A stretch of DNA of 64,000 nucleotides from Gudongella oleilytica. Its GTDB lineage: Bacteria > Bacillota > Clostridia > Tissierellales > Tissierellaceae. The stretch lies in contig NZ_CP035130.1 of NCBI RefSeq assembly GCF_004101785.1, positions 1,364,001 through 1,428,000 on the forward strand, given 5' to 3'. Below are positions 9,514 to 35,214 of this stretch, piece by piece. The stretch's first letter is position 1, and each line of letters opens with the position of its first letter. The notes below the pieces were generated by a model, which saw only the letters and a program-made list of their open reading frames with translations, had not been told where the DNA came from and did not search any database. Both the position numbers and the translations under genes were made by a program.

Positions 9514-9580
9514 ATCGAGTAGGGGAAAATTAATTCCCCTCTCACACCACCGTACGTGCCGTTCGGCATACGGCGGTTCA
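9514..9580 (-). ncRNA. Group II intron domains V and VI
   Basis: Domain V is a 34-base hairpin, GAACCGCCGTATGCC / GGCACGTACGGTGG, closed by a GAAC-type loop. It starts at the stop codon of the reverse transcriptase. Domain VI follows as a GAGGGG / CCCCT stem and ends in CTACTCGAT. This is the catalytic core and branch-point region of the ribozyme. Confidence 0.85.
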
Positions 9581-10831
9581 ATTCAAATAATAATCCAAAC
9601 AACTAATGAGACCTCGCTTTGCGAGGATTTCTTTTGATATTTTACGTAAACCTGTGGTTTTAGCCACTGCCTGGTAATGGTTGTTAAACCCTACCGACTG
9701 TCTTACCATCCATTCCGGAGCACCGAGTTTTCTTAAGCCCCACATTCTCTTCTGACTGGTTTTCCACTGCTTCCATATCACGATACGGATTCTTGTACGC
9801 AAGTGTCCATCTATTCGTATCATATTAGTCTTCATTTTACCTATTCGAAAGTAGTTTATCCAGCCTCTGATTACCCAATTGAGTCTCTTTATTCTATCGT
9901 CCATGCTGATTGACCATGAGCGTTTTGTGAGCTGCTTGAGTTTTCTCTTGAATTTAACTATGGAGTCCCGATGAGGCCTTGCCTCCCATTTACCATCCAT
10001 CTTCACAAAACCAAATCCTAAATATTTTAGCTTTGTTGGTTCTGTGGTTCTTGTCTTTTCTGCGTTGACTTTTAATCCGAGTTTTCTCTCTATCCATTTT
10101 GTTATGGTGTTCATAACTCTGTTGGAAGCTGCACTACTTCCTACTGCTATTACACAGTCATCTGCATATCTAACAAAATTAAGTCCTCTTGCTTCAAGCT
10201 CTTTGTCAAGCTCATTGAGCATGATGTTACTGAGTATTGGGGAGAGGTTTCCTCCCTGCGGGGTCCCCTCGTTGGTTTCTTCATATTTTCCTTTGTCCAT
10301 CACTCCTGCCTTTAGATATTTAGCTATGAGTGATTCTGTGTCAGGGTCTTGTATGATTTTGCCTACAAGGGTCATCAGCTTGTCTTGTGGTACATTATCA
10401 AAGAACTTCTCAAGGTCAATATCCACTATGTAGATATATCCGTCATTCAGATATTCCAATAGTTTGATGACTGCCTGTTGTGCTCGTCTACCCGGCCTGA
10501 AACCATAGCTGTATTCGCTGAAATGTGGCTCCACTATGGGTGTGATTACCTGCACTATTGCCTGTTCTATGATTCTGTCCATCACTGTGGGTATACCAAG
10601 TTTTCTTACTCCACCATTTGGCTTTGGTATTTCAACTCTTAGCACCGGCTGAGGTTTGTACTTTCTGTTACGAATACGTTCCTTGATGTCTTCCCAGTTT
10701 CCTTTCAGATATTCATCAATTTCGTCTACACTTATGTTGTCTATGCCTCCTGCTCCTTTGTTGGCTTTTACCTTCTTGTATGCAAGCAGCATATTCTCTC
10801 TTGATAATATCTGTTCCATTAGTTGTGACAT
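9578..10831 (-). CDS. ltrA: Group II intron reverse transcriptase/maturase
   Basis: A 417-residue intron-encoded protein that helps splicing and copies the intron into new sites. Reverse transcriptase blocks include GGIDNISVDE, the FRPGRRAQQA segment, GTPQGGNLSPILSN and the catalytic YADD box. A maturase domain X follows (about residues 285-345, LNWVIRGWINYFRIGKM). It has no C-terminal HNH endonuclease, as expected for class C. The frame is intact. The roughly 490 bases upstream to 11324 hold intron RNA domains I-III and no separate gene. Confidence 0.95.
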   Translation of the reverse strand: MSQLMEQILSRENMLLAYKKVKANKGAGGIDNISVDEIDEYLKGNWEDIKERIRNRKYKPQPVLRVEIPKPNGGVRKLGIPTVMDRIIEQAIVQVITPIVEPHFSEYSYGFRPGRRAQQAVIKLLEYLNDGYIYIVDIDLEKFFDNVPQDKLMTLVGKIIQDPDTESLIAKYLKAGVMDKGKYEETNEGTPQGGNLSPILSNIMLNELDKELEARGLNFVRYADDCVIAVGSSAASNRVMNTITKWIERKLGLKVNAEKTRTTEPTKLKYLGFGFVKMDGKWEARPHRDSIVKFKRKLKQLTKRSWSISMDDRIKRLNWVIRGWINYFRIGKMKTNMIRIDGHLRTRIRIVIWKQWKTSQKRMWGLRKLGAPEWMVRQSVGFNNHYQAVAKTTGLRKISKEILAKRGLISCLDYYLN

Positions 10832-11325
10832 GATTTGTCTCCTTTTCCTGTTTTGCTTTCATGCATATCAACCTTACCTCCTGTGAACCCTTCGCTCCGT
10901 TACGTCTTCGCTACTGAGATTCTCGTCAGGCCTATGCATTTACATCCGTAAGTCCATTTGACTTTGAATTGTTCAGTCCTTCCTTGTTTCCAAGTACTAT
11001 GACCTCTGCTGACTTCTCATGGTTCGTTATTACTACGGTTTTAGCCGCCCATGAGACCTCACGGGATAAGTCCTCTGTCTTTCCTCGTCTACCTGCCTGA
11101 TCTACCTGCATGGGTTACGATTGCCTTTTGGACTTCACTGCTTTTGGCCAGCTTATCCTCCATGCAAGCCTTGGTATCAGGTTTCTGTCCGTCAGGCTAC
11201 GATTTCGCTATTGCTTCCTCTCGCCCACACCTCACGATGTGAACCTTGCAAGTCGCTATAGGGTTCGTCGGCAACTACGCCCCTTGTGGACTTTCACCAC
11301 AGACAGAAGGCATGCCCGTCGTACC

Positions 11326-27849: not shown

Positions 27850-27997
27850 ATGTATCCTCTCTGTACTTTATATTTATCCTTTAATAGGATATAATGAAGA
27901 TATTAAAAATTAGGTGATTATTAGAATCTATTATATCACAGACTATAGCTTTGATGAATGAAAATGTTGAAGAATGAATACTTGGGAGGAATCCAAC

Positions 27998-29209
27998 TTG
28001 ACCAGAAGATTGTATTGGGAGAATCCGTATCTTTTTGAGACTGACGCTAAGATAGAAAGAATTGACAACAATGAGGAAGGCTTTCAGGTTACCCTGGATC
28101 GTTCCATTTTTTACCCTGATATGTCGGGTGGTCAGCCTGGCGATGATGGAACAATAAATAGTGTCAATGTAATTAGGACATATGAGGATGGCGACAACCT
28201 GGTCCATGTTGTCAGGGAAAGATTAGCACTGGGAAAAGCTAATCTCAGAATAAGTGGTGAACGAAGGATGGACCTAATGCAGCAACACTCGGGGCAACAC
28301 CTTTTATCAGGTGTTCTTTTCAGATTGTTCGGTGCTGAAACCATTGGATTTCATTTGGGTGAGGAGTATACTACAATAGATTTGAACGTCCCTGATGTTT
28401 CTGAGGATGAATTAACCAGAGCTGAGCAGCTGTGCAATAAGATCATCCAGTCAAATTTCAGGATCAAATCCTATGTGGTTTCCTCAGATGAAGTCAGGCT
28501 TCTTCCTGTGAGAAAAAGACCAAGTGTTGATAAAAATATAAGGGTCGTTGAGATTGACGGATTTGATTACTCCCCCTGTGGAGGGACACATGTTGCTGCA
28601 ACAGGCGAGTTGGGGCTGTTAAAAGTAATCAGAAGTGAAAAATATAAGGGCAACACAAGAATATATTTTTTGACTGGGAAAAGAGCCGTAGATGATTACA
28701 TCAATAAGTTCAACTCTGTAAGGGACATAAGTGCTGTTCTATCGACAGGTGATACTCAGGTCTTTGAAAGATTCAGCGCTATTTACAACGAGCGAAACTC
28801 ACTTTTGAAGGATATGAAGGAGTTAAAGGAGAAGCTTTTATCCCTGGAGGGTGAGAATCTATTGCGTGGCACGAAGCTGCATGGTGAAGGAAGAATAATC
28901 TGTAAGATGTTTGACAACAAGGATTTCAAAGAAGTCAGCTACATGGGTAATTGGCTTACAAATACCAACGAAAGACTGGTACTTATATTCGGGATCGAAG
29001 GTAGCAGTATCAGCCAATTTATGATCAGTAAGAGCAAGGACGTAGAGCTGGAGCTAAACGATATCTACAAGGAACTCTCCTCCCTGTATCAGATAAAAGG
29101 CGGCGGAAATAGCAATACAGTTCAAGGATCGATCTCCTCAAGCCACCTGAATGGGCTGTTGGAAAGATGTCTCGAACTGGTTATGAAAGCTATGGACCAA
29201 AAAAAATAG
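27998..29209 (+). CDS. AlaX-like alanyl-tRNA editing protein with DHHA1 domain
   Basis: Free-standing relative of the alanyl-tRNA synthetase editing domain; such proteins hydrolyse Ser-tRNA(Ala) or Gly-tRNA(Ala) in trans. The roughly 403-residue protein has DMSGGQPGDDG, the zinc-binding QQHSGQHLLS and CGGTH motifs, a coiled coil (about 260-300) and a C-terminal DHHA1-type region (IKGGGNSNTVQGS). I chose TTG 27998, eight bases after GGGAGG; an ATG at 27974 has no binding site. It is convergent to selC and shares its terminator. Confidence 0.88.
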   Translation: MTRRLYWENPYLFETDAKIERIDNNEEGFQVTLDRSIFYPDMSGGQPGDDGTINSVNVIRTYEDGDNLVHVVRERLALGKANLRISGERRMDLMQQHSGQHLLSGVLFRLFGAETIGFHLGEEYTTIDLNVPDVSEDELTRAEQLCNKIIQSNFRIKSYVVSSDEVRLLPVRKRPSVDKNIRVVEIDGFDYSPCGGTHVAATGELGLLKVIRSEKYKGNTRIYFLTGKRAVDDYINKFNSVRDISAVLSTGDTQVFERFSAIYNERNSLLKDMKELKEKLLSLEGENLLRGTKLHGEGRIICKMFDNKDFKEVSYMGNWLTNTNERLVLIFGIEGSSISQFMISKSKDVELELNDIYKELSSLYQIKGGGNSNTVQGSISSSHLNGLLERCLELVMKAMDQKK

Positions 29210-29235: not shown

Positions 29236-29332
29236 TGGCGGGAGTATGTGGGAATCGAACCCACCCAAGAGGCTCCTAACCCCTCGCGCTGGTTTTGAAG
29301 ACCAGAGAGCCCACCAGAACTCCTCTACCCCC
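29236..29332 (-). tRNA. selC: tRNA-Sec (anticodon TCA)
   Basis: A 97-base tRNA with encoded CCA. The anticodon arm is CTGGT-CTTCAAA-ACCAG with anticodon TCA that reads UGA. It has a six-pair D stem (GAGTTC / GGGCTC), a long variable arm and a GTGGG-TTCGATT-CCCAC T arm, all features of bacterial tRNA(Sec). The acceptor stem pairs GGGGGTA with TACTCCC, with a mismatch at the eighth pair. It lies 47 bases behind the response regulator, as the last element of the operon. Confidence 0.95.
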
Positions 29333-29379
29333 ATTGGCTACAAAAGCCATTATACAGTATTCGAATCCAAACATCAATA

Positions 29380-30069
29380 TTATTTTTCTCTGAAAAAGTA
29401 GCCTACTCCCCATTTCGTTATTATATATTCCGAGATTTTTGGGTCTTTTTCAAGCTTTTCCCGTATTCTCCTTATATGGACATCCACCGTTCTCAGGTCA
29501 CCATAATATGCATAGCCCCATACTCTTTCCAGGAGCTCTTCCCTTGTATATACCTTTCCTGGGGTTGATGCCAGAACGTATAGAAGATCAAACTCTTTAC
29601 CGGTAAGGCTAATATTCTTATCTTTACAAGTTACTTTTCTGCCTACTGTGTTTATCCTGATATCTCTTATCTCGATCACATTGCCATCACTTTCCTGAAG
29701 CTTGTTTGAATATCTCCTTAGGACAGCCTTTATCCGTGCTTTGAGTTCAAGGATGTTAAAGGGCTTCACAAGGTAATCGTCTGCACCATATTCAAGTGCC
29801 AGGATCTTCTTTATATCCTCATCAACATTAGTTATAAATATCAGTGGAACAGCAGAAATAGTTCTCAAATTCTGGCAAAACAGGAGTCCGTTGCTATCAG
29901 GAAGCTCGATCTCAGTGAGAACCATATCATAATTCTTCCTGTTCAACAGTTCCATTGCAGCAGCTGCACTTCCTGCATGTTCTATCACATATTCATCTTG
30001 CTCGAGAGAATATCTCAAACCTTTGACAAAGGACTTATCTGTATCTACAATCAACACTCTTCCGCTCAT
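29380..30069 (-). CDS. OmpR-family response regulator with a Glu in place of the phosphoacceptor Asp
   Basis: A 229-residue DNA-binding regulator: receiver domain (residues 1-120) and an intact C-terminal winged helix (about 130-229, LTGKEFDLLYVLASTPGKVYTREELLERVWG). Normal receivers read (V/L)LDxxLP at the phosphorylation site; here it is LTEIELP, with Glu53 at the acceptor position. The acidic pocket reads VDTD rather than VDDD. Thr80 and Lys102 (YLVKPF) are conserved. It may be constitutively active or phosphorylation-independent. No histidine kinase is nearby. I chose the second ATG (30069) because AGGGGTG is too close to the first. It lies between selB and selC. Confidence 0.93.
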   Translation of the reverse strand: MSGRVLIVDTDKSFVKGLRYSLEQDEYVIEHAGSAAAAMELLNRKNYDMVLTEIELPDSNGLLFCQNLRTISAVPLIFITNVDEDIKKILALEYGADDYLVKPFNILELKARIKAVLRRYSNKLQESDGNVIEIRDIRINTVGRKVTCKDKNISLTGKEFDLLYVLASTPGKVYTREELLERVWGYAYYGDLRTVDVHIRRIREKLEKDPKISEYIITKWGVGYFFREK

Positions 30070-30083
30070 CATTTCACCCCTGG

Positions 30084-31994
30084 CTACTTAAACAGTACCC
30101 TGTTTTCTCCGGACCGTCTTGTTATCTTGATTTGATCAAAATACTCCAGCAATCCGATTGCTACTTTGCGATTTGTATTTAATATATCCCTGTATCCACC
30201 TACAGTAATATTCCCTGCCTCTGCCATAAGATCATATAATGACGATTTAGCCTTTTCCAAGCTTGACGGCAAAAGAAAAAGATCATCAGACAATTTCACC
30301 AGTTCGCCTGAGCCAATGAGATACATAATCATTTCTTCAGTTTCTCCATTAGTACCCAAAGTGGTCACCTGTAAATCCTCACGCTTGGGAGGCATGAATG
30401 GAGCTTTTTCAAAGCTATCCAATATCCATTTTTTAAGTGCCAGCTGTTTGTCATTAAGTTCAGGTTCAAACCCTGAAAGAGCGACAAGATCCTTTAGTTG
30501 TTTGATTCTTCCACCGGTAATCAAATGATCAAGTATCTCTTCAGCCAGTCTTGGTTTAGCTTTTGACAGAAACCTGCTTCTAAGCTCTTCTTTCGCCATT
30601 CCGTTTCTTATCGGGAACTTTTTATGGAAGTCCTCGAGCTCACCAATGATTTGATCCTCTAATAAATCCAATACTTTTTTGTGGACAGGATAAATGTCTT
30701 TGCTTAGTCTAAAAATTATTACCTTCCCATTTCCCTCAAGCTTTTTTATCTCCTCTTCCAGATTTTCTTCAAGCATTGAGGCCGTTTTGGATATTTCCTT
30801 CAATGAGTGGTAGCTCCTACTGTTTTCTTCGACTATATGCTCCACAATTTCACTGAAATTCCCTTGATCCTTGATCGCCAGTTCTTCCAGGCTTTTCTCA
30901 TCGAACCTTTTTCTCTTCACTGGATTTGGCTCGAGAACCTCACCTCCTCCAACTGTGAACATTGGGGAATAAAATCTGAGGATGAACCTGTCACCCATTT
31001 TTGCAACTGTCTCCTCCTCAAGCCTGAGCTGAGCGTATGTCTCATCCCCAGGGTCAAGTACTTCTCTGTCAAGAAGCACTACTCTGCAGAGTATTTCATC
31101 TGTTCCAAGATAGAGCTTTAATCTGGTCCTATTCTCCAATCCCTTGCTTAAGGATCTCAATAGCTTAATTTTTACATCAAGCATCATGGTGGATCTCATT
31201 GAATTGACTGGGGCGACAATGCTGCCTCGGTCTATCTGAGATTTTTTTACGCCCGCAAGATTAAGAGCAACTCTTTGTCCCCCATATGCTACTGACGCAT
31301 CCTGATCGTGTACCTGAATTGATCTTATCCTTGCTATGGTATCACCTGGATAGACCTGTATCTCATCTCCTACCTTAAGGCTCCCCGCAAGAAGGGTACC
31401 TGTGACCACTGTCCCGAAGCCTGAAATTGTAAATACCCTGTCCACCGGTAGCCTTGGCATGTCATCGAGGCTTTTATCCTCGAGTGATTCCGATAGTTTT
31501 AATATTTCTTCTATAACATTACTAATTCCTATTTTTTCTGTTGAGGATACTGGTATTATAGAGGCTCCCTCAAGGAAGGTACCCTTTACTTCATCCTTGA
31601 TCTCCTCCTCCACCAGCTGTAGCCATTCGTCATCAACCAAATCAGATTTGGTAATTACAACAAACCCGCTCTTCACGCCGACAAGGTCAAGAATTGCAAG
31701 ATGTTCAGCCGTTTGTGGCATAATACCCTCATCTGCTGCTACTACCAACAATACAATATCTATTCCTATTACACCTGCTAACATATTCCTAATGAATTTC
31801 TCATGGCCGGGTACATCAATTATCCCCGCTCTTTGCCCTCCGGGAAGATCAAAGTAGGTAAATCCCAGCTCTATTGATATTCCTCTTTCCTGCTCCTCTT
31901 TAAGGCGATCAGTATTCCTGCCTGTCAAAGCCTTGATTAATGTCGTTTTACCATGGTCTATGTGACCAGCAGTGCCTATGATCAAGTGCTTCAT
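30084..31994 (-). CDS. selB: Selenocysteine-specific elongation factor SelB
   Basis: SelB carries Sec-tRNA(Sec) to the ribosome and binds the SECIS hairpin. The 636-residue protein has an EF-Tu-like part with [32 protein letters not shown] and TKSD, beta-barrel domains II and III, and C-terminal winged-helix repeats (about residues 380-636) for mRNA binding. Full length. Its start overlaps the selA stop codon by one base (TAATG), so the two are translationally coupled. Confidence 0.97.
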
Positions 31995-33412
31995 TACCTA
32001 CACTCCTTAAGCTTACTAGCTGCAAACAGGAGGGCTTTATTGATAATATCAAGCTCATCCTCCTGAATTGTCCTTGGGTCCAGCAAAACCTTTTCTTTGC
32101 TTATTCGTGATATGACAGGCACTTCATAGCCTCTTAAGCCTTTCTCAAGAATTACAGCACTGCCTGCCAAGGGTTCTAAAGCAACGCACTTTGTTGGTAT
32201 CCTTTCCATTGGTAGAGAACCGCCACCTACCTCTGAAAAATCATCCTCCAAACTTATGGCTACTGGAAGATCACTTATGGATGATCTGAGTAAATCCATT
32301 AGGTCTTGAGCTTTCTCAGAGATTTCAGCATAACTCATTGTAAGCATTCTAAGTGTCGGTATCCTTTTAATTGCAGTTTCCTCATCCAGATAAAGCCTCA
32401 TTGTAGCCTCGAGTGCAGATATTGTAAATTTGTCCACTCTTAGGGCGCGGGTAAGGGGATTTTTTTTCATTCTATCGATGTACTCCTTCCTTCCGACAAT
32501 TACTCCTGCCTGAGGACCTCCCAATAGCTTGTCTCCGCTAAAGGTCACTACATCTACTCCCTTTCTTATACAGGATGATACTGTGGGCTCGTAAGAAAGT
32601 CCGAATTTTGAAAGATCTACAAGCACGCCGCTTCCCAAATCTTCGATCACAGGAATTCCATACTTCTCCTTTAACGGCAGCAGCTCCTCGCTGTCAACTG
32701 AAGAGGTAAAGCCCATTATTCTGTAATTTGATGTATGGACTTTCAGAATAGCAGCCGTGTTTTCAGTTATGGCAGCCTCGTAGTCCCATAAATGCGTTTT
32801 ATTGGTTGTTCCAACCTCAATTAGCTTAGCCCCGCTTTGCTCCATTACCGCAGGGATCCTGAAGGCTCCTCCAATCTCTATCAGCTCGCCACGGGAAACT
32901 ATAACTTCCTTTCCTTTTGCCATAGTTGAGAGAACAAGCATGACTGCAGCCGCATTGTTGTTGACGACTAGGGCAGCTTCCCCACCAACGATTTTAGCGG
33001 CAATCTGTTCAAGATGATCATACCTTGAACCTCTGGTGCCTTTGTCTAGGTCATATTCCAGGTTGGAATATGATATTGCTGTCCTTAAAACCTGCTCCAT
33101 TATTTGTCTATCGATAAGTGATCTGCCAAGGTTTGTATGGATTACCACACCTGTGGCATTAACAACTGTTCTTAAGCTGTAGTGCAGTTTCATTTCAATT
33201 CTTGAGGAAATTGATGATTCAAGTTTTTCAAGCTGTTCCTCAATCCAGGACCTGTTTTCACCATTTTTTATACCTTCTCTCAGCTCATCAGCTTCCTCTC
33301 TGACGGCTTCAAGAACAACAGCCCGCGGAGAAGAGTTCAGGTACTCTTTAACTATTTCATATTCAAGTATCTCGTCGACCTTGGGAATCAATGTATATAA
33401 ATTGGTTTCCAA
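31994..33412 (-). CDS. selA: L-seryl-tRNA(Sec) selenium transferase
   Basis: PLP enzyme that converts Ser-tRNA(Sec) to Sec-tRNA(Sec) using selenophosphate. The 472-residue protein has the SelA N-terminal domain (IPKVDEIL), NATGVVIHTNLGRS, and the PLP lysine K295 in FSGDKLLGGPQAG. The start is a TTG at 33412, behind GGGGTGA. Length is normal. It lies 18 bases behind selD. Confidence 0.97.
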   Translation of the reverse strand: METNLYTLIPKVDEILEYEIVKEYLNSSPRAVVLEAVREEADELREGIKNGENRSWIEEQLEKLESSISSRIEMKLHYSLRTVVNATGVVIHTNLGRSLIDRQIMEQVLRTAISYSNLEYDLDKGTRGSRYDHLEQIAAKIVGGEAALVVNNNAAAVMLVLSTMAKGKEVIVSRGELIEIGGAFRIPAVMEQSGAKLIEVGTTNKTHLWDYEAAITENTAAILKVHTSNYRIMGFTSSVDSEELLPLKEKYGIPVIEDLGSGVLVDLSKFGLSYEPTVSSCIRKGVDVVTFSGDKLLGGPQAGVIVGRKEYIDRMKKNPLTRALRVDKFTISALEATMRLYLDEETAIKRIPTLRMLTMSYAEISEKAQDLMDLLRSSISDLPVAISLEDDFSEVGGGSLPMERIPTKCVALEPLAGSAVILEKGLRGYEVPVISRISKEKVLLDPRTIQEDELDIINKALLFAASKLKECR

Positions 33413-33430: not shown

Positions 33431-34468
33431 CTATTCTACTTTAAGATGTGTTCCGGTAAAATTTTCTACTCTTCCGATTATCCCATGAGGAATTTCTGAA
33501 TCCTTCAAATTATCCATAATGATCCCAGCGGTTTTTGGCGAAGCTGAAATAAGCAATCCTCCTGAGGTCTGGGGGTCAAACAGGATATCCTCAAGATACC
33601 TGGGAACACTTGCAGCCACCTCGACCTTGTTGCCTATGTGGCTTCTGTTGTTGTATGCTCCGGCAGGAATCAACCCCATCTCTGCATAATCTCTGGCTTC
33701 TTCAATATAAGGCACCTTCTTCGATTCAATAATTATTGTCGTGTTGCTTCCCTCAGCCATTTCGAGGCAATGACCCAACAGCCCAAAACCTGTTATATCG
33801 GTTACGCTGTTTACTTCGCTGAGGCCTTTGAAGGCTTCCATCCCTTCCCTATTGAGAGTTGTCATTACTTTGACGGCTTTATCATAGGATTCTTCGCTTG
33901 CTAACTCACCCTTTATTGCCGTGTTTATTATACCAAGCCCCAGGGGTTTGGTAAGCACGAGTACATCACCTGGCCTGGATGAACTGTTTTTTTTGATGCT
34001 TTCAGGATGTACAAAGCCTGTAACTGATAGTCCATATTTTGGTTCATCATCTGAAACAGAATGTCCCCCAACAAGTATAGCCCCTGACTCTGTTACCTTA
34101 TCATATCCGCCCCGCAGTATCTCAGAAAGCACTGAAGGCTCCAGACATTCAGGAAAACAAACTATATTAAGTGCCAGCCTGGGTTCTCCCCCCATCGCAT
34201 AAACATCACTCAGGGAATTCGCGGCTGCTATTAGTCCAAAGGTATATGGATCATCGACCACTGGAGTAAAAAAGTCCAGGGTTTGTATCATTGCCAGATC
34301 ATCGTTGATCCTATACACTGCTGCATCGTCGGAGGTGTCGATTCCAACCAACAGGTTCTCATCATTTGTCTTTGGTAGATTGCACAGGACCTGTGCAAGT
34401 ATATCGGGTCCGATTTTGGCCGCTCACCCAGAGCTTTTCGTCAATTGGGTCAATCTTATTTCTTCCAT
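33431..34468 (-). CDS. selD: Selenophosphate synthetase, itself a selenoprotein (in-frame UGA)
   Basis: SelD makes selenophosphate from selenide and ATP. Starting from the ATG at 34468, which has GGAGG upstream, the reading frame is open through the whole gene except for one TGA (34424-34426), at codon 15. The context is KSSG-U-AAKIGPD; this is exactly the catalytic position, Cys or Sec, of the family. The product is then 345 residues, normal for SelD, and continues with [14 protein letters not shown] and the ATP-binding [10 protein letters not shown] segment. A SECIS-like hairpin follows the TGA. Automatic gene callers would start the gene about 40 codons late (TTG at 34351) and lose the active site. 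Confidence 0.95.
34380..34426 (-). promoter_or_regulatory. Sec UGA codon and bacterial SECIS-like hairpin in selD
   Basis: The TGA is at 34424-34426. Twenty-five bases later on the mRNA, a perfect 8-bp stem TTGCACAG / CTGTGCAA (34380-34398) closes on GUC. The apical sequence CAGGUCCUG resembles the GCAGGUCUGC tip of the E. coli fdhF SECIS, which SelB binds. Spacing is compatible with bacterial SECIS elements. Confidence 0.85.
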
Positions 34469-34479
34469 ATTTGTTCCTC

Positions 34480-35079
34480 CTAGTCAACTGTGATCAGGTC
34501 CTTTATGTCGTTGAATTTAGCATCTCCAATACCTGATACGTTCCTTATATCATCTATACTCTCAAACCTACTACTTTTCCTGTACTCAATTATCCTGTCG
34601 GCTATAACCGATCCAATTCCAGGCAGGCTGTCGAGCTCCTCCTTGCTGCAGGTATTAATGTTTATCAAGCCATTATCGCTTCCTGTATTTATGGCTTCTA
34701 TGTTCTGGGAAACTTCCTCTCCGATCGCTGGTATATATATCTTATCCTCATCTTTAAGTTTTTTCGCAAGATTTATACGGTCAATGTCAGCTGACTTTGT
34801 CAAGCCACCTGCAAGATCAACTGCATCCTTTACCCGATCGCCGCTTATAAGCTCATATATTCCCGGGTAATACACCTGCCCGCTGATATGAACCATTATT
34901 AGCGAAGGCTCCTCCGATTCTTCTTTTTCATCATATTTAACAGATGTTTCAGACTGAATCAAAGCCAGTGGTTGTGTTGGCTGGTTTTTTCTTATATACC
35001 CTCCAATTCCAAAATAAGCCAACAAAATGATGGCTATACTCAGTATAGCTATTTGCTCCTTCTTTGTAAAGAAATCCAT
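34480..35079 (-). CDS. comEA: Competence DNA-binding protein ComEA
   Basis: Membrane-anchored receptor for double-stranded DNA in transformation. The 199-residue protein has an N-terminal membrane span (about residues 8-28), an SLBB domain (about 60-115, HISGQVYYPGIYELISGDRVKDAV) and a C-terminal helix-hairpin-helix pair (INTCSKEELDSLPGIGSVIADRIIEYR). The start at 35079 lies six bases after AGGAGG; the frame is open upstream but without a site. It is the first gene of the selenocysteine operon, 11 bases before selD, while comEC lies 7 kb away. Confidence 0.93.
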   Translation of the reverse strand: MDFFTKKEQIAILSIAIILLAYFGIGGYIRKNQPTQPLALIQSETSVKYDEKEESEEPSLIMVHISGQVYYPGIYELISGDRVKDAVDLAGGLTKSADIDRINLAKKLKDEDKIYIPAIGEEVSQNIEAINTGSDNGLININTCSKEELDSLPGIGSVIADRIIEYRKSSRFESIDDIRNVSGIGDAKFNDIKDLITVD

Positions 35080-35133
35080 ATCCATCCTCCTGTCAAACCC
35101 TTTAGTGATTACTAATGTCATGAATAATTATTT

Positions 35134-35162
35134 ATCTTATCACCGTTAAGTTTTTTTGTAAA
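35134..35162 (-). promoter_or_regulatory. Candidate promoter of comEA-selDAB-regulator-selC
   Basis: Minus-strand -35 TTTACA (35157-35162), 17-base spacer, -10 TAAGAT (35134-35139), about 55 bases before comEA. It overlaps the divergent dacF promoter, so the two may compete or share regulation. Confidence 0.55.
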
Positions 35163-35174
35163 ATCTGATATAAT
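35146..35174 (+). promoter_or_regulatory. Candidate promoter of dacF
   Basis: Plus-strand -10 TATAAT (35169-35174) with a weak -35 TTAAGT (35146-35151) at 17 bases. It overlaps the opposite promoter of the selenocysteine operon. Confidence 0.5.
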
Positions 35175-35214
35175 CTATTATTGTAAAATACAAAAATCAA
35201 CGGTGGTGTACATA

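Follow-up and report, generated by a model that had tools for sequence, protein, structure and literature searches.

In Gudongella oleilytica, the gene of an OmpR/PhoB-type response regulator follows selB in a row of selenium genes, with no kinase gene beside it and with glutamate in its receiver where the phosphorylated aspartate is expected. This raises the question of what sets the activity of such a protein, and whether the glutamate or the selenium genes play a part in it. A 2025 review describes the activation and inactivation of bacterial pseudo-receivers as a mystery and names Glu, conformational bias and dimer bias as possible sources of constitutive activity (PMC12632262). The locus was analysed in a stretch of 64,000 nucleotides (contig NZ_CP035130.1, positions 1,364,001 to 1,428,000), hereafter the window, and compared with its counterparts in related genomes. 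The same gene occurs at the same locus with and without a kinase across 19 families of a single order, so that erosion of the receiver can be placed relative to kinase loss. The regulator is therefore a good natural case for studying the rewiring of such switches.

The regulator and its phosphorylation pocket

The regulator gene (29380–30072, minus strand) is an intact open reading frame of 230 amino acids. It begins with ATG-ATG, preceded by AGGGGTG, which resembles a ribosome-binding site (read by eye). In the preliminary description, residues were numbered from the second methionine (Glu53, Thr80, Lys102); numbered from the first, as done here, they are Glu54, Thr81 and Lys103. Pfam Response_reg and Trans_reg_C matched with 87.1 and 103.8 bits, both above the curated cut-offs, and the combination of receiver and winged helix assigns the protein to the OmpR/PhoB family. 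The predicted fold was confident in both domains (mean pLDDT 88.5) and weak at the linker. A fold search returned KdpE, MtrA and PrrA as top matches over the full length, and further matches included RitR (5u8m, 5u8k) and the atypical orphan regulator 2hqr, which we take to be HP1043. The best-scoring solved sequence was MtrA with 159.9 bits, practically equal to RegX3 with 159.6 bits, so these scores do not single out MtrA as the orthologue.

Alignments to the solved MtrA, RegX3 and KdpE place E54 in the acceptor column ('vlteielp' versus 'vlldlmlp'), and codon 54 reads GAG (29911–29913, minus strand), which confirms the replacement of Asp by Glu described earlier. Glutamate at this position is common to the other three genomes of the genus, and the acceptor Asp is present in all seven paralogues fetched from the same genome (an eighth OmpR-type match lies outside this count). 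Thr81 and Lys103 are retained, as had been stated. The motif VDTD, previously taken for the acidic pocket, does occur (with D10, T11 and D12), but is itself a loss: by column comparison, the second metal-binding aspartate (DD2) is replaced by Thr11 (codon ACA, 30040–30042, minus strand). The second Asp of this pair is a direct metal ligand in receivers, and the residue after the conserved threonine (T+1) is Ala or Gly in 74% of them (PMC12632262). In the window protein T+1 is Asn82, while the switch residue Tyr100 is kept.

The canonical set of five residues (DD, D, T, K) is thus incomplete at two places, DD2 being Thr and the acceptor Glu. A protein recognised as a receiver in which key catalytic residues are missing corresponds to the definition of an aspartate-less pseudo-receiver (PMC12632262). 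As a metal ligand and the acceptor are lost and the gate is filled, phosphorylation of this receiver is unlikely.

Gene order at the window locus

The gene row reads comEA-like, selD, selA, selB, regulator, tRNA-Sec, all on the minus strand. At its head lies a comEA-like gene with SLBB and helix-hairpin-helix domains (34480–35121), followed by selD (33431–34468), selA (31994–33412) and selB (30084–31994); comEA-like, selA and selB were assigned by open reading frame and Pfam. For selD, 34468 is the putative start, and an in-frame TGA in the N-terminal part (34426–34424, context SSG-TGA-AAKIG) is presumably read as Sec, so SelD is probably itself a selenoprotein. The regulator gene follows selB with a gap of 11 nt, and tRNA-Sec (29240–29332, tRNA match) lies immediately downstream of it. 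In kinase-bearing relatives this last gap is filled by a kinase gene, often together with a lipoprotein gene; at the window locus both are missing, and the order regulator-kinase-lipoprotein is not found. Between the regulator stop codon and tRNA-Sec, a promoter-like element TTGATG-N17-TATAAT (29349–29377, minus strand) was recognised by eye from the consensus, and tRNA-Sec may have its own transcription start there.

An alanyl-tRNA-editing-like gene with a tRNA_SAD domain (27974–29209, plus strand) converges on tRNA-Sec, and does so in other g1 and g8 genomes as well. Elsewhere in the window, group II intron RNA matches were found at 9514–11241 (minus strand). The window genome also contains a sigma-factor-like stretch broken by stop codons (G000:C1:30789-31231).

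Search for the missing kinase

No kinase gene adjoins the window regulator. Judged by coordinates, each of the eight strongest kinase matches in the window genome (E 4e-26 or better) has as its neighbour an OmpR-type gene other than this one; two weaker kinase-like matches (730447 and 2313536; 57 and 52 bits) fall outside this comparison. The description of the regulator as an orphan is therefore borne out.

A search for a displaced copy of the sel-linked kinase found none, either in the window genome or in 10 further genomes without the kinase (families f1, f17 and f12 with two genomes each, f15 with four). With a query kinase from another genome, the best match in the window genome reached 188 bits. 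Among the 10 others, the best match was 173–221 bits in five, and five had none at E<=1e-50. With the query's own genome left aside, genuine sel-linked kinases scored 431–559 bits in three genomes that have them, against 172–203 bits for the secondary matches of kinase-bearing genomes, so the matches in kinase-less genomes look like paralogues. Nothing beyond this paralogue level was found as a cognate histidine kinase of the window regulator, which could be served by a kinase of another, unrelated kind.

Survey of the locus across the order

The order search matched 147 genomes. Twenty-five were kept out of the table, namely 24 weak matches (E about 6e-57 to 4e-61, nearly all f12) and G071 (1.9e-70), although the latter is probably a true orthologue. 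The 125 genomes tabulated span 19 sampled families and include three that were absent from the match list (G087, G124 and G126); these, together with G086 and G069, were fetched via their selB. Setting apart L197 (a paralogue with its own kinase and a canonical pocket) and L194 (a partial row) left 123 genomes in three groups.

Group 1 comprises 40 genomes from 14 families, in which the regulator is immediately followed by a histidine kinase match. Every one of them has selB in front and the pocket D-D-E/D/T/A/K at the seven positions compared, these columns having been chosen after the alignment had been seen. A lipoprotein match follows in 31 of them. The stretches of 21 genomes contain tRNA-Sec, at a distance of 1476–3364 nt behind the regulator. 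The order selB, regulator, histidine kinase, together with a canonical pocket, thus holds for 14 of the 19 families, and stretches that extend far enough also show selA and selD upstream of selB; a Germane-type lipoprotein gene and then tRNA-Sec often follow the kinase. The single kinase scanned contained HisKA, HATPase_c and HAMP domains, and the Germane domain was confirmed in its neighbour lipoprotein and in one protein of an outside locus, L009. Upstream, the comEA-like gene lies next to dacF in all 24 stretches examined, 11 of them from kinase-bearing genomes.

Group 2 comprises 60 genomes without a kinase match: 24 of f1 (the window's family), 20 of f17, 15 of f12 and one of f5. The regulator stands behind selB in all 60, and no lipoprotein match was found in any. 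In 28 of the 31 genomes where tRNA-Sec was found, it lies 50–175 nt behind the regulator. No member of the group has Asp at both DD2 and the acceptor. The acceptor residue is Asp in 34, Glu in 20, Asn in three, Gly in two and Ser in one, and 33 of the 34 rows with Asp have no acidic DD2. The exception, G073, is the only genome of the group with acids at DD1 and DD2 (Glu) and with the acceptor Asp; its T+1 is Asn. Alanine at T+1 is missing in 59 of the 60 rows (Glu in 29, Lys in eight, Asn in six, Asp in five), and the DD2 column holds 13 different residues.

Group 3 consists of 23 genomes of f15, also without a kinase. Here the acid pocket is kept in 17 of the 20 rows with a resolved N-terminus (three of the 23 are unresolved), and Ala at T+1 in 18 of 23. 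This family is the main counter-case, having lost the kinase with the pocket mostly intact; either the pocket takes time to erode, or phosphate reaches it from another donor in this family.

As the case against its reading, the preliminary description had named homologues with a normal aspartate and a cognate kinase. A canonical pocket beside a cognate-looking kinase is what all 40 kinase-bearing relatives show, which makes kinase loss, and not a special selenium device, the best explanation of the glutamate. The search it proposed for the same glutamate in the sel operons of relatives found it in 20 of the 60 kinase-less genomes outside f15.

Kinase loss and the acceptor position

Trees of SelA plus SelB and of the regulator were calculated with quick, unmixed models and contain several long rows; the regulator tree was used for grouping only. 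On the SelA plus SelB tree, f1 and f17 are sister groups, and the best tree requires four changes of kinase state. A single shared kinase loss for f1, f17, f5 and f12, with f15 apart, is not rejected (p-AU 0.409; 0.906 without two long rows), so the rows of group 2 are not independent. Just three to four independent pairs exist, too few for significance, and paired tests are underpowered. In kinase-less rows the acceptor D54 was replaced at least 10 times, six times by Glu, twice by Asn and once each by Gly and Ser; one of these 10 changes, to Glu, falls in f15.

These observations are probably best explained by a response regulator that was orphaned of its kinase, whose pocket has eroded and which is active without phosphorylation. 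In the window lineage both the kinase and the lipoprotein are gone and tRNA-Sec stands directly behind the regulator. The pocket is eroded at the DD2 aspartate, the acceptor aspartate and the gate residue T+1, with most of the alpha4-beta5-alpha5 face, the Y-T switch residues and the winged helix held by purifying selection. The protein may then dimerise via the 4-5-5 face and bind DNA without phosphorylation, its output being set by the amount made and not by a sensor, as the start of the gene 11 nt behind selB would suggest. E54 would be tolerated, possibly mildly favoured, and may help to hold the active state in the window protein, but would not be the cause of the family's activity. The earlier proposal of a regulator that is independent of phosphorylation gains support in this form, as far as sequences can tell.

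Alternatively, E54 could mimic the phosphorylated state and lock the regulator on, the glutamate having been fixed by selection after kinase loss to keep the phosphorylated output. Six of the 10 acceptor changes lead to Glu, compared to 26% Glu among aspartate-less receivers (PMC4395418), the Y-T coupling residues and the lysine are kept in the window protein, and the D52E variant of CmrR from Clostridioides difficile is more potent (PMC12548384). Against this, 34 of the 60 group 2 genomes keep Asp, 33 of them without an acidic DD2, and the other replacements include Gly, Asn and Ser. Forms with Gly54 and Met81, in which no acidic mimic is possible, are still under purifying selection (receiver dN/dS 0.075 and DNA-binding domain 0.017 for the pair L142/L143). 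Furthermore, the E53A exchange in CmrT lowers toxicity just slightly (PMC12548384), and ChxR still bound DNA after its Glu had been changed (PMC4395418). We consider the phosphomimic unlikely for the window protein. As a general mechanism it is unsupported, with D, G, N and S in the same column of sister sequences, and the idea that Glu is the source of permanent activity does not extend to the family.

Conservation and selection

Column counts were made on 79 tree rows (33 kinase-bearing, 42 kinase-less, four f15). Mean column divergence between the kinase-bearing and the kinase-less rows, in segments whose limits were set after the alignment had been seen, was highest in the pocket and the beta3-alpha3 loop (0.49 each), followed by the linker (0.41), helices 2 and 3 (0.31) and helix 1 (0.19). 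On the 4-5-5 face it was 0.23 for alpha4, 0.12 for beta5 and 0.05 for alpha5, and in the DNA-binding domain 0.13–0.20. The kinase docks at helix 1 of the receiver, and this helix was not outstanding. Kinase-less sequences were more variable in all 14 segments compared. Alanine at T+1 is present in 33 of 33 kinase-bearing rows and replaced, mostly by Glu, in 41 of 42 kinase-less ones. The kinase-less rows keep D98 and D99 (42/42) and Y100 (41/42), and helix 4 carries one fixed change on the 4-5-5 face, from Gly92 (33/33 kinase-bearing) to Ala (42/42 kinase-less). Judged by these alignments, erosion reaches beyond the pocket but spares most of the dimer face, of the Y-T switch and of the winged helix, and in this sense it is selective.

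Across nine kinase-less pairs, two of which share row L131, receiver dN/dS was 0.019–0.110, somewhat higher than in the five kinase-bearing pairs with finite dS (0.018–0.046); the values are approximate, as dS was high in some pairs. For the DNA-binding domain, the eight kinase-less pairs with finite dS gave 0.012–0.059. The statement that this domain is intact thus holds, with Trans_reg_C above its cut-off and the domain conserved under purifying selection. Given these ratios and the intact frame, a pseudogene is unsupported.

The strong change of the pocket and the beta3-alpha3 loop could also reflect a new input other than phosphate, such as a ligand, a partner protein or redox, perhaps the selenium or redox state of the cell, acting on a remodelled pocket. 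The bulky or charged residues at T+1 are in line with this, and ligand- and redox-gated pseudo-receivers are known (PMC12632262). A conserved binding site would, however, be expected to have constant residues, and no constant new pocket is seen, DD2 alone varying among 13 residues in 60 rows. Direct reading of the window protein found no candidate redox cysteine, neither one in the linker as in RitR nor one close to DD+19 as in Hp1021. We regard such an input as distinctly unlikely.

A regulator of little function, on its way out of the locus, would be another reading of the pocket losses. Among 20 stretches downstream of selB, most of them chosen for a missing or weak match in the order search, 12 have selB and lack the regulator; in six of the 12, selB is followed by tRNA-Sec in the same orientation. 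As the regulator is gone while selB remains in several lineages, it is dispensable there. Extreme pockets such as LPT/D/T/Y also exist. The low dN/dS of both domains and the conservation of the 4-5-5 face and the DNA-binding domain nevertheless make decay highly improbable where the gene is present, and they agree with an eroded regulator that would still dimerise and bind DNA.

Relation to the selenium genes

The link of the regulator to selenium use, as proposed in the preliminary description, consists of gene order, and elsewhere comEA precedes the same regulator with no sel genes detected. A comparison of 72 loci from outside the order, in Lachnospiraceae and other Clostridia (L008–L080 except L030), showed canonical residues throughout, a comEA-like match in 68 and no match to selA, selB or selD; of seven such loci checked, six have a kinase behind the regulator. 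Downstream in L009 lie a Germane lipoprotein gene and, after it, a ComEC-like reading frame (by eye). Within f15, the regulator of G168 and G176 stands behind comEA with no selB, and G176 still has tRNA-Sec 64 nt behind the regulator. As relatives keep the regulator-kinase pair with comEA alone, the targets need not be selenium genes. The adjacency to selB in 60 of 60 group 2 genomes, five of which were fetched via selB and 55 via the regulator, is also explicable by co-deletion.

Comparison of the comEA/dacF intergenic stretches identified no binding site for the regulator. The pattern RNAGGAWWW-N10-13-RNNGAAT, which we take to be a sigma-H-type promoter consensus, was present toward comEA-sel in 17 of 23 such stretches (including L002, L003 and L228–L247), with 0.12 expected from shuffles, the pattern having been chosen after the sequences were seen. 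It is absent from the window stretch (35112–35213) and from those of G222, G234, G238, G206 and G021, and occurs in two of 64 comEA upstream regions from outside the order. A SigH-family match was found in all 10 genomes searched, in five of them over the cut-off.

An extension of the preferred explanation would make the regulator dosage-driven, the amount of Sec machinery setting its output, with feedback on comEA-sel and other Sec genes, and would take the series of loci as a natural record of the birth of pseudo-receivers. We hold this extension to be rather doubtful. A predicted sel-linked regulator, LysR_Se, has been described (PMC5322559), which resembles the window regulator in being a transcription factor beside sel genes. 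It belongs to the LysR family, whereas the window regulator is of the OmpR family by Pfam. Neither the literature search nor a term search of two selenium papers turned up an OmpR-type regulator, or the kinase of one, described as a neighbour of sel genes.

Comparison with known systems

The pseudo-receiver as a kind, and substitutions of this type, are already known from CmrT of C. difficile; the sel-operon setting and the series of loci (kinase present with an invariant pocket, kinase absent with a drifting pocket, gene absent) appear to be new. CmrT resembles the window regulator in its DGD pocket, E53, T80, K102 and OmpR-type DNA-binding domain, and its authors inferred constitutive activity (PMC12548384). 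Its gene is accompanied by those of a kinase and a second, canonical regulator (cmrRST), whereas the window gene stands alone behind selB, and CmrT has no Pro at D+4, which the window regulator keeps (PMC12548384). A further difference is that some orthologues of the window regulator have a kinase gene beside them.

ChxR, HP1043 and RitR are regulators independent of phosphorylation and, like the window regulator, orphans with a degenerate receiver and an OmpR/PhoB fold (PMC12632262, PMC4395418). RitR uses a linker cysteine that the window regulator does not have (PMC12632262), and the three are not known to be linked to sel genes. The window regulator differs from all three in having canonical orthologues with an adjacent kinase in the same locus. 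The actinobacterial lipoprotein LpqB bears a Germane-type domain. The order regulator-kinase-lipoprotein of the kinase-bearing relatives is also that of MtrA-MtrB-LpqB in Actinobacteria (PMC5487470), in contrast to the window lineage, in which kinase and lipoprotein are lost.

Further observations on neighbouring genes

In two of the 125 genomes (G225, locus L142, and G223, locus L194), a LysR-type gene, recognised by eye, lies about 210–236 nt behind the regulator. They belong to the genus with the most dead pocket (Met81), and the gene was not found in the genus-mate G224; it could be LysR_Se. A small universal-stress/KdpD-like protein with the motif VCVTQQ-TC or similar is encoded downstream of the regulator in L133, L148, L173, L176, L183 and L188 (by eye) and recurs across several families. 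On a contig labelled 'Bacillota bacterium' (L030:1-4138), where no tRNA was found, a SelA-like C-terminal piece (29% identity) is followed by a regulator with DPD and Glu, and further downstream by PlsY-like and ComEC-like reading frames (by eye). This regulator is possibly an independent pseudo-receiver.
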